A stretch of 64,000 nucleotides of DNA. It comes from Allohoeflea poritis (lineage in GTDB: Bacteria > Pseudomonadota > Alphaproteobacteria > Rhizobiales > Rhizobiaceae). Made by a program: the position numbers and the translations under genes. Of the stretch, positions 1,064 through 62,805 are shown in pieces (position 1 is the stretch's first letter; every line of letters begins with the position of its first letter). The notes under the pieces were generated by a model. The model was not told where the DNA came from. It did no database searches and worked only from the letters and a program-made list of their open reading frames with translations. The stretch lies in contig NZ_JAPJZH010000010.1 of the NCBI RefSeq assembly GCF_027889715.1, positions 62,001 to 126,000 on the forward strand. The letters run 5' to 3'.

Positions 1064-1762
1064 ATGAGTCTCTACGATACGGTGACAAGCACATTGGTGC
1101 CGGTTCACAAGGAAGGCTACAAATTCGTGCTCGCCTTTCTGGCTGCCTCCCTGGTCCTCGGCTGGATCTGGGATCCTCTGTTCTGGATCGGCCTGCTGCT
1201 GACCGCCTGGTGCGCCTATTTCTTCCGCGATCCGGAGCGTGTGACGCCGCTTGACGACGATCTCGTCATCAGCCCCGCGGATGGACGCGTATCATCCATC
1301 GTGTCTGTCGCTCCGCCAAGGGAACTCGGCCTCGGCGAAGACGAAATGCTGCGCATCTCCGTCTTCATGAACGTTTTCAACTGCCACGTGAACCGCGCGC
1401 CGATGGCGGGCAGCGTCCGCGAAGTGGTCCACAAGCCCGGCCAGTTCCTGAACGCGGAACTGGACAAGGCCAGCGAGGAAAACGAGCGCAACGGTCTGGT
1501 CATCGATACGGCCAAGGGGCCCATCGGCGTCGTGCAGATCGCCGGGCTGGTGGCCCGCCGCATTGTCTGCTGGACATCGGCCAACGATCACCTTGACGCC
1601 GGAGAACGCTTCGGCCTGATCCGTTTCGGCTCGCGGCTCGACGTATTCCTGCCTGCAAACGCCACACCGCGCGTAACGGTCGGGCAGACGGCGATTGCCG
1701 GCGAGACCGTCCTCGCCGAATTCGACGCGGCCAAGGGTAAAACCGTCTCCCGCAAGGCTTAG
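1064..1762 (+). CDS. psd: Phosphatidylserine decarboxylase proenzyme
   Basis: Converts phosphatidylserine to phosphatidylethanolamine in the inner membrane; the partner gene pssA lies downstream. The 232-residue product is the short form usual in alphaproteobacteria. An N-terminal hydrophobic hairpin (about residues 18-50) anchors the protein. The conserved FRDPER and [10 protein letters not shown] stretches are present. Self-cleavage should occur between Gly189 and Ser190 in RFGSRLDV, turning Ser190 into the pyruvoyl cofactor. ATG at 1064 is chosen because GGAG at 1053-1056 sits seven bases before it; the in-frame TTG at 1058 is too close to that site. The stop TAG is unusual: its TA is the left target duplication of the inserted element that follows, and its G is the first base of the element. 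Confidence 0.96.
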
Positions 1763-2060
1763 AGCGTGTCTGGCTTGGTTTGAAGCATTTGATGGTGGAA
1801 AATCGGTCCAGTCGGCTAGGCGCGTTGCGCAGCGCGATGTGGTGCATCGGGCAAGCGGCGCAACGACGCCGATGGGCCGATTTTCCCCACCCTTGAAAGG
1901 AAAGAAGATGTTAAAACGCACAGATGAATGGGCCGGGCGATTTTGGCCCCTGGCGTCGTTGGCTCGCGCTTGTGGTGGGGTGGCACCACGGCGCGCAACC
2001 CGCCTAGCCAGAGACCAAAATCGCCGCGGTCAAATGTTTCAAACTAAGCCAGACACGCTC
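1762..2060. mobile_element. MITE-like palindromic element with TA duplication
   Basis: A 299-bp non-autonomous element between psd and pssA. The ends are 30-bp inverted repeats (1762-1791 and 2031-2060) with only two mismatches, beginning GAGCGTGTCTGGCTT. Both are flanked by TA (1760-1761 and 2061-2062), the target duplication made by IS630/Tc1-mariner transposases. The symmetry continues inward: a GGCTAGGCGxGTTGCGC block on the left pairs with one on the right, and CAACGACGCC pairs with GGCGTCGTTG, so almost the whole element is one imperfect palindrome around an asymmetric centre near 1885-1930. No transposase is encoded. No second copy was noticed in the window. A rhizobial intergenic mosaic repeat is the alternative name. 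Confidence 0.75.
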
Positions 2061-2063
2061 TAG
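1908..2063 (+). CDS. Possible 51-residue peptide inside the MITE-like element
   Basis: An ATG at 1908 lies after a purine-rich GGAAAGAAG stretch that could serve as a ribosome-binding site. It opens a 51-codon frame running through the right arm of the element and ending at TAG formed by the right-hand TA duplication. The peptide starts MLKRTDEWAG, is rich in Arg and Ala, has no membrane segment and resembles no family I know. The right arm is constrained by palindrome pairing, so an open frame could be accidental. The good ribosome site in the only non-palindromic part of the element is the argument for expression. Confidence 0.25.
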   Translation: MLKRTDEWAGRFWPLASLARACGGVAPRRATRLARDQNRRGQMFQTKPDTL

Positions 2064-61902: not shown

Positions 61903-62805
61903 TCAAGCGCTGGTGCGCGTGGCAAATTCGGACGCGTAGTGATCGCGCTGCAACCGCGCCGCCGTTACCGAATTCTTCAAAAGGGTCGCCACCGTGACGG
62001 GGCCGACACCACCGGGCACCGGGGTGATCCAGCCGGCGACATCCGCGCAGCTTTCGAAATCGGCATCACCGACAACCTTCGGGCCGTCGGCCGTATCGAT
62101 CTGGTTGATGCCGATATCGATTAGGACCGCGCCGGGTTTGAGCATGGCGCCGGTCACGAGGCCCGGCTTGCCGACGGCGACGAAGACGGCATCCGCCGAG
62201 CGCGAATGCATGGCAATGTTGCGCGTCTCGTGATGACAGACCGTAACGGTCGCGCCCTGCGCCATCAGCAGAAAGGCGATCGGCTTGCCGACAATGGCCG
62301 AATGGCCGATAACCGTGACCTCCAGGCCTTCCAGATTGACGCCCGTCGACTTGAGCAGCTCCACGGCGGCCACCGCGGTGCAGGGCCCCATCTTCAGGTC
62401 GTTGTAAACGATGTCGCCGATATTCGACGGGTGCATGCCCTCGACATCCTTGAGTGGATGCACCGTTCGTTGCAGTCGCCGCTCGGTTAGATGCTTCGGG
62501 GTCGGGCGCTGGATGATGATGCCGGTGACGCGCGGATCCGTATTAAGACCCTGGATGATGCCGAGCAGTTCGTCACGGCCGATTTCCGCCGGATAGTGGC
62601 GTGCCTCGAAGGCGATGCCTGTTTTCTCGGCTGCTTTCTGCTGGTTGCGGACATAAAGTGCCGACGCCTCCACATCGCCCATGGAAATCGAGACCAGTTT
62701 CACCGGCCAGCCTTCCGTCTTGAGCGTTTCCACCTCGGACGCGACATCCTTGCGGATCTGTGCGGCTATCGCCCTGCCATTGAGCAGCTTGTACGAATTG
62801 GGCAT
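61903..62805 (-). CDS. folD: Bifunctional methylenetetrahydrofolate dehydrogenase/cyclohydrolase
   Basis: Interconverts 5,10-methylene-, methenyl- and 10-formyl-tetrahydrofolate, feeding purine synthesis. The 300-residue enzyme has the catalytic Tyr51 and Lys57 in ALYVRNQQKAAEKTGI, the signature segment MHPSNIGDI, the nucleotide-binding VTVIGHSAIVGKP and the C-terminal TPVPGGVGPVTVATL. Start ATG 62805. Metabolic link to PurF is by pathway only; no operon with it. Confidence 0.96.
   Translation of the reverse strand: MPNSYKLLNGRAIAAQIRKDVASEVETLKTEGWPVKLVSISMGDVEASALYVRNQQKAAEKTGIAFEARHYPAEIGRDELLGIIQGLNTDPRVTGIIIQRPTPKHLTERRLQRTVHPLKDVEGMHPSNIGDIVYNDLKMGPCTAVAAVELLKSTGVNLEGLEVTVIGHSAIVGKPIAFLLMAQGATVTVCHHETRNIAMHSRSADAVFVAVGKPGLVTGAMLKPGAVLIDIGINQIDTADGPKVVGDADFESCADVAGWITPVPGGVGPVTVATLLKNSVTAARLQRDHYASEFATRTSA

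Follow-up and report, generated by a model that had tools for sequence, protein, structure and literature searches.

A TA-flanked repeat between psd and pssA belongs to an alphaproteobacterial family with a conserved fold and variable arms

The insert at the psd-pssA junction

In the window, the 64,000-nt stretch of an Allohoeflea poritis contig analyzed here (NZ_JAPJZH010000010.1, positions 62,001 to 126,000), the plus-strand genes psd (phosphatidylserine decarboxylase, PF02666; 1058-1762) and pssA (CDP-alcohol phosphatidyltransferase, PF01066; 2068-2904), both assigned by Pfam match, are separated by a palindromic element in plus orientation. With the TA at either border it occupies 303 bp (1760-2062), of which 299 bp (1762-2060) were inserted, as delimited by arm pairing, the predicted fold, other copies and empty sites. 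Its left arm (1760-1792, starting TAGAGC), defined by arm pairing and by comparing arms across copies, pairs with the right arm (2030-2062) to form the stem P1; 31 of the 33 nt are matched (94% complementary). A sequence-only reading of this DNA had described 30-bp terminal inverted repeats with 28 of 30 positions identical, TA at both borders of a 299-bp unit, and inner pairing. All of this was confirmed, the last by further inverted pairs at 1814-1839/1984-2009, 1936-1954/2007-2025 and 1797-1810/1873-1886. Within the window, a 27-nt end pattern with up to three mismatches matched at the two element ends only (0.00 expected by chance), and an Rfam scan of 1500-2300 gave a single chance-level match (14.3 bits, against a family gathering score of 380).

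The same reading had proposed folding the element as RNA, and had suggested that a very long hairpin could form. The fold of 1760-2062 reached -180 kcal/mol, whereas shuffled sequences averaged -116 (z -12.4; none of 100 shuffles as good), so that strong folding was upheld, but the consensus structure is P1 enclosing two hairpins and a linker rather than a single long hairpin. Hairpin P2 (helices 2-5) lies at approximately 1793-1889 and carries at its tip the most conserved core, AGCGCGATGTGGTGCATCGGGCAAGC (1831-1856), located by core search and alignment. The linker (1890-1931, placed by alignment) is long in most copies of the host genus and short elsewhere in the alignment, and hairpin P3 (helices 6-10) follows at approximately 1932-2029. 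A conserved subterminal box, CATTTGATGG (1786-1795), has its mirror TCAAATG at 2030-2036.

The left copy of the target TA (1760-1761) is kept as the TA of the psd stop codon TAG, as judged by comparison with the site CGCAAGGCTTAGCAACAATGG of G007, the closest relative by pssA; the right copy (2061-2062) was placed by empty-site comparison. The element does supply the last base of the psd stop codon, as the sequence-only reading had it, but the stop itself is unchanged, because the empty site of G007 also reads TAG.

On the minus strand, an open frame (1292-1921, peptide like PLARCTTSRCATRLA) runs through the element, and similar ORFs were seen again at many loci. Many members of the largest ORF cluster, which spans 66 loci, overlap the element; such frames may be annotated in error as hypothetical proteins.

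Copies, conserved fold and drifting arms

A blastn search of the host genome (5.58 Mb, 54 contigs) found 58 matching pieces at about 40 places or more, counting partial ones and the copy in the window. This number is a lower bound, since 40 of 74 candidates were scored; a single copy may, however, be split between two of the places, both of them contig ends. Direct matches elsewhere in the genome are 76-95% identical. At E ≤0.001, 18 of 61 genomes matched, among them all eight of the genus. The psd-pssA site is empty in all seven other genus genomes; it reads CGCAAGGCT-TA-GCAACAATGG in G007, compared with CGCAAGGCT-TA-(299 bp)-TA-GCACCATGG here. No insert was seen in the 150 nt around the junction in 18 further genomes of the family (of 40 with a match), and G007 provides a second empty site, at the place of copy L006. 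Given that the empty site of G007 holds a single TA, the psd-pssA copy is a precise insertion at TA, with the TA doubled, that is missing from the other genus genomes. The sequence-only reading had anticipated a multi-copy mobile element inserted at TA, and had suggested looking for empty sites in relatives; both its expectation and its check were borne out, the seven relatives' sites being empty and the element being repeated. Among 89 copies with clean TA borders (36 of 125 were dropped), C or T preceded the TA on 143 of 178 flanks, which defines a YTAR target.

The core pattern AGCGCGATGYGGNNCATCGGGCAAGC was found in at least 119 stretches of the genome_contigs collection. Among the 80 loci listed for it, record titles were alphaproteobacterial or 'Proteobacteria' only, and the groups named included Hyphomicrobiales, Rhodospirillaceae, Kiloniellales, Inquilinus, Tistlia, Pelagibius and Anderseniella, among others. 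The core pattern had no match in viral_contigs, the element had none in phage records, and a search of 72,556 plasmids gave partial matches to two records only. Judging from these matches, the element is a copy of an alphaproteobacterial family found in several groups, with about 58% G+C and about 260-305 bp per copy. In the literature searched, with ISfinder and subscription papers outside its scope, we recognized no description of this repeat; two of six core and arm strings occur there, both in one unrelated Artemia paper.

Of 126 intact-arm copies selected on arm score and length, four were duplicates; the other 122 were aligned, and 37 of these are below 80% identity. In these 37 divergent copies, 95.2% of the outer P1 pairs (cells with letters) are Watson-Crick, compared with 39.8% in shuffles, a figure that is inflated by the selection of copies on arm match. 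Between copies, identity is only 34% in the arm columns and 72% in the paired columns of P2. Among loci collected by core alone with enough sequence, the arm score was at least 42 in 54 of 62 (four of them duplicate copies already in the set; 18 further loci were cut by edges), so that arm matching is not solely a product of selection by arm score. In the covariation test on alignment A1, which covers 37 divergent copies, 88.6% of cells were paired against 64.0 ± 0.5% in shuffles, double-change cells numbered 806 against 248, and 81 of 89 pairs had double compensatory changes; sliding the partners by 1-3 columns reduced pairing to 36-40%. These double changes, together with the excess of paired cells over shuffles, indicate that compensatory change has preserved the entire fold, P1 with P2 and P3 inside it, across the genomes aligned.

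The host genome holds several arm types, yet in a full copy the left arm matches the right, and the arms of relatives have different sequences that are still matched within a copy. On this comparative evidence, what defines the family is its fold and its core, not the sequence of its ends. The proposal of a miniature inverted-repeat transposable element (MITE) in the sequence-only reading was thus right in kind: the unit is 299 bp (below 500), repeated in the genome, too short for a transposase, and flanked by a target duplication with empty sites in relatives. It was wrong in a key detail, because family-wide terminal repeats shared with a parent insertion sequence (IS) were not seen, no parent was found in the genomes and loci searched, and no IS630 partner is supported.

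The arms fall into classes. In the class defined by the six bases TAGAGC (77 copies, 41 distinct arms), A18 and G23 are kept at 93%, positions 27-36 (the subterminal box) at 83-98%, and T10, G14, T16, A20 and T21 at 73-80%; conservation at the other middle positions is 32-68%. Other classes start TAATACC or TAGCCC, and in the class TAGCCCGCATTTCTCA about 15 nt are kept across genera. From this pattern, the element end looks bipartite, with a tip and a subterminal box. Copies L134 and L135, from one genome, have interiors that are 99.6% identical and arms that are 60% identical, both arms having changed together; this contrast shows that arms and interiors reassort.

Several other repeats were noted around the copies. 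In L315 (about 388-443, complete chromosome), a copy has lost its interior, and both arms are left as a short near-perfect palindrome. Solo ends of 14-24 nt (TAGAGCGTGTCTGGCTT) with no remaining element occur near position 1501 of L033, L041, L044, L046, L047, L051, L052 and L055; some lie at gene ends by eye, and they are possibly deletion footprints of similar length. A second palindromic family, of about 100-110 bp (TAGACCGTTTCACGTTTTGTCAG...), appears, in two genomes of the genus, to be nested near the GCCTAGCC of certain copies (L062, L123, L124, L125, and L333 at 1131-1240 and 2610-2707). An IS end, GGTCTAATCGACATTCAGGATTCA, marks a second mobile element at CTAG (L005 1-71, L021 1803-1875, L049 1-70 and L058 at about 1778-1846); in L005 and L021 it coincides exactly with the CTAG end of the copy. 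Since contigs break at these ends, this IS is probably multi-copy and collapsed in assembly. Some of the spurious hypothetical proteins and assembly breaks of the host genomes may likewise be due to the family described here.

Stop codons and operon junctions

Of the 89 copies with clean borders, 51 have inserted precisely at a stop-codon TA, the ORF concerned having at least 100 codons. Counted by side, 58 are in the stop frame, compared with 13 and 28 in the other two frames. In a fresh set of 40 regions, 18 were dropped (15 without borders, three at edges), leaving 22 clean copies; L363, which equals L250, was excluded, and 14 of the 21 new copies were at a stop codon. Given that most arms start with TAG, a TAR stop is kept, and this would explain the survival of the element next to genes such as psd. 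The preference suggests how a 300-base insert can survive inside operons, psd-pssA, ureD-ureA and EIIA-HPr among them.

At tight operon junctions of the first set, 18 copies were in plus and one in minus orientation with a limit of 20 nt (21 to five with 40 nt), the limit having been tightened from 40 to 20 nt after the first look. A Pfam family was found in the downstream ORF of 14 of the 18 plus copies, and in neither ORF of the single minus case (L072). Examples of the 14 are livM-livG, EIIA-HPr, ureD-ureA, TctB-TctA, FolB-UvrC and CobO-CobB, some of these being the names that we presume from the protein families. The fresh set, a small sample, gave an orientation ratio of 1:1 under the same criteria, and its minus case (L367), where by eye a transporter-like gene comes after a cyclopropane-fatty-acid-synthase-like one, appears real. 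We therefore regard the orientation bias at tight junctions as a lead only.

In seven relatives, pssA starts 5-9 nt past the psd stop, a gap so short that the ribosome-binding region of pssA is probably inside the psd end. With the insert in place, some 300 nt separate the end of psd from the start of pssA. In the predicted fold of 1720-2110, the P1 stem is kept and extends two bases beyond the TA, and part of the start codon is paired. Two hypothetical small ORFs were read on the plus strand of the element. One, of 34 codons (1792-1896), starts at the ATG of the subterminal box, and its TGA adjoins a Shine-Dalgarno-like stretch. The other, of 51 codons (1908-2063), is led by AAGGA (1897-1901), starts at ATG 1908, and ends at the terminal TAG (2061-2063), 5 nt before the pssA ATG. 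This Shine-Dalgarno-led ORF could re-couple psd and pssA through a translated relay inside the element, whereas the sequence-only reading had supposed that the insert could uncouple the two steps of phosphatidylethanolamine synthesis; either effect may hold.

Across the 89 copies, the plus frame that ends at the terminal TA is open for at least 40 codons in 73, compared with 14 and 15 for the other plus frames; the minus frames are open in 43, 12 and 50. Shine-Dalgarno-led ORFs reach the element end in 35 copies on the plus strand and 12 on the minus strand, mostly in copies with a long linker. They are present in 11 of 18 junction copies and 24 of 71 others (p 0.057), and only 15 of 77 ORFs from the box ATG end at the terminal stop. 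Together these counts are at most suggestive of a relay. One might suppose that the element is an operon-transparent insert: in plus orientation it would take the upstream stop, ribosomes would read its own small ORF or ORFs, and they would then pass on to the start codon of the next gene; at present we consider this quite unlikely. If it were true, insertion of this mobile repeat would restore translational coupling where other inserts break it, and the relay stop codon would be built from the right end of the element and the target TA.

Origin and relation to known repeats

The explanation that we favor, and hold to be somewhat probable, is a family of non-autonomous fold-back elements that depends on a TA-targeting DDE transposase, on arm copying and on survival at stop codons. 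The transposase would act in trans, and would recognize the subterminal CATTTGA box together with a short tip, mostly TAGAGC. Repeated copying of one inverted arm onto the other, by template switching in the hairpin, may keep the middle of the arms matched although it is less constrained; such copying is a known process (PMC8794818, PMC8604942). Interiors would spread between copies by recombination, and insertions would survive mainly at stop codons, where the first bases of the element, TAG, restore the stop. Because no transposase with matching ends was found, the mobilizer in this explanation is a guess. The class TAGCCCGCATTTCTCA, with its 15 nt kept across genera, looks like ordinary terminal-repeat recognition and counts against the explanation, as do the several middle positions of the TAGAGC class kept at 63-80%.

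The sequence-only reading had named an IS630-type element with the same ends as the likely mobilizer. On such a view the repeat would be a classic MITE, an internal deletion derivative of IS630/Tc1-mariner with terminal repeats bound by the IS630 transposase. The duplicated TA target agrees with this, although it is common to another IS (L087, below) and so is not diagnostic, and a DDE_3 (IS630-type) fragment is present in the host genome. However, DDE_3 was found in four of the eight genus genomes (mostly drafts, which may lack some) and the element in all eight, no IS630 with the same ends was found in these genomes and the loci fetched, and none of seven DDE_3 loci had TAGAGC-type ends. In the complete IMCC20636 chromosome, 70 arm matches with up to three mismatches (reversed control, 0) formed pairs mostly 240-254 bp apart, plus shorter pairs and unpaired remnants, and no pair framed a gene-sized insert. 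Arm pairs in the Inquilinus and Tistlia genomes were at most 265 bp apart, one further Inquilinus match being unpaired, and all four arm matches in the Pelagibius genome were unpaired. In 356 loci (1.44 Mb, partly overlapping), 121 end pairs of the TAGAGC class were all within 434 bp, with none 0.5-3.5 kb apart. Moreover, the arms are the least conserved part of the element and differ between copies, so that 'same ends' does not define the family; we regard an IS630 derivative as improbable. A MITE moved by an IS5-family transposase, presumably of the IS427 group, which also targets YTAR, is a doubtful but more serious possibility. The PF13340 domain (IS5/IS427 type) was found in all eight genus genomes, and L087, an apparently intact IS with this domain that we take to belong to the same group, lies in CTTTAAAG with the TA doubled. 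L087 thus resembles the element in its YTAR target and TA duplication, but it carries a transposase and its ends, TAGGCTGAATCGACATTC, are unlike those of the element, and the other 19 PF13340 loci are without TAGAGC-type terminal repeats. A pattern search of the host genome and of the PF13358 and PF13340 loci found no parent transposon with the same ends, and neither did a sensitive inverted-repeat comparison of 27 transposase loci (20 PF13340, seven DDE_3) find TAGAGC-type ends. Capture of terminal repeats from a resident IS is unsupported in the genomes searched, where no arm pair frames a gene-sized insert.

Alternatively, the structure may be held by selection on a single-stranded form, a transcript or single-stranded DNA, recognized for example by a vertically inherited host enzyme in the manner of REPIN/RAYT systems. 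Compensatory change throughout P2 and P3 is in line with this, as are the failure to find an autonomous partner in IMCC20636 or the 356 loci and the viral, phage and plasmid searches described above, which resemble the pattern of chromosomally dependent repeats. On the other hand, an excess of G-U over A-C, which looked strong in pooled cells, was carried by few columns and failed a per-column sign test (22 versus 18, not significant). The 36 divergent copies folded about equally on both strands (19 better on plus), although plus was better in 84 of all 121 copies. No transposase-like gene recurs beside the element in the 25 protein clusters inspected: the clusters beside it in most loci contain ORFs overlapping the element, and the largest others resemble, by eye, ABC ATPases (11 loci) and short-chain dehydrogenases (eight loci), both common families. 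We therefore take this single-strand selection to be unlikely, if worth keeping in mind. A host regulatory repeat like CIR of Caulobacter, kept for function and not mobile, would fit the two-hairpin design that is conserved across the class and often lies between genes; it is contradicted by empty sites with precise TA borders and by the 40 or so differing places in the host genome, and GANTC occurs in only 47 of 122 copies, which makes it highly improbable.

Three candidate transposons were rejected on inspection or left as observations of their own. L355 (DDE_3) shows TAGAGC on either side; the right-hand copy, however, falls within tRNA-like sequence, and the match covers only 8 nt. The ends GAGAGTGTC of L353 resemble the arms about as well as shuffles did in 64 and 279 of 2000 cases; at 883-2215, this genus-genome locus carries a transposase gene (IS256-like by eye) between 25-nt inverted ends GAGAGTGTCNGRTC, with an IS630 fragment adjoining. 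L333 seemed to hold a transposase-like gene between 48-nt inverted repeats, but the repeats proved to be a different palindrome present twice, and the genes that they enclose are unrelated.

In this family, the usual rule for small transposons is reversed, the fold being conserved and much of the end sequence being free. The family therefore lends itself to testing what keeps inverted repeats matched, selection on pairing or template-switch copying.

Finally, we compared the element with known repeats, as they are characterized in the sources cited. REPs are 20-40 bp long with a GTAG tag, and REPINs are moved by RAYTs (PMC3733652). Like REPINs, the element has paired hairpins (here about 95 nt), and an autonomous copy with the same ends was not found; unlike REPs, it is about ten times larger and duplicates TA. 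CIR of Caulobacter and other Alphaproteobacteria is about 110 bp long, with a GANTC site and no terminal inverted repeat (PMC2229807). The element is likewise alphaproteobacterial and intergenic, with two hairpin arms and a linker, but it differs in its size of 260-305 bp, its closing stem, and the minority of copies with GANTC. MITEs such as Correia/NEMIS, RUP and ERIC are described there by their terminal inverted repeats, which RUP shares with an IS (PMC2229807, PMC10969869). The element is like them in being short, in its TA termini and target duplication, and in its long stem-loop transcripts; it is unlike them in that its arms vary by copy while the interior fold is conserved, in a repeat of about 58% G+C and about 260-305 bp.
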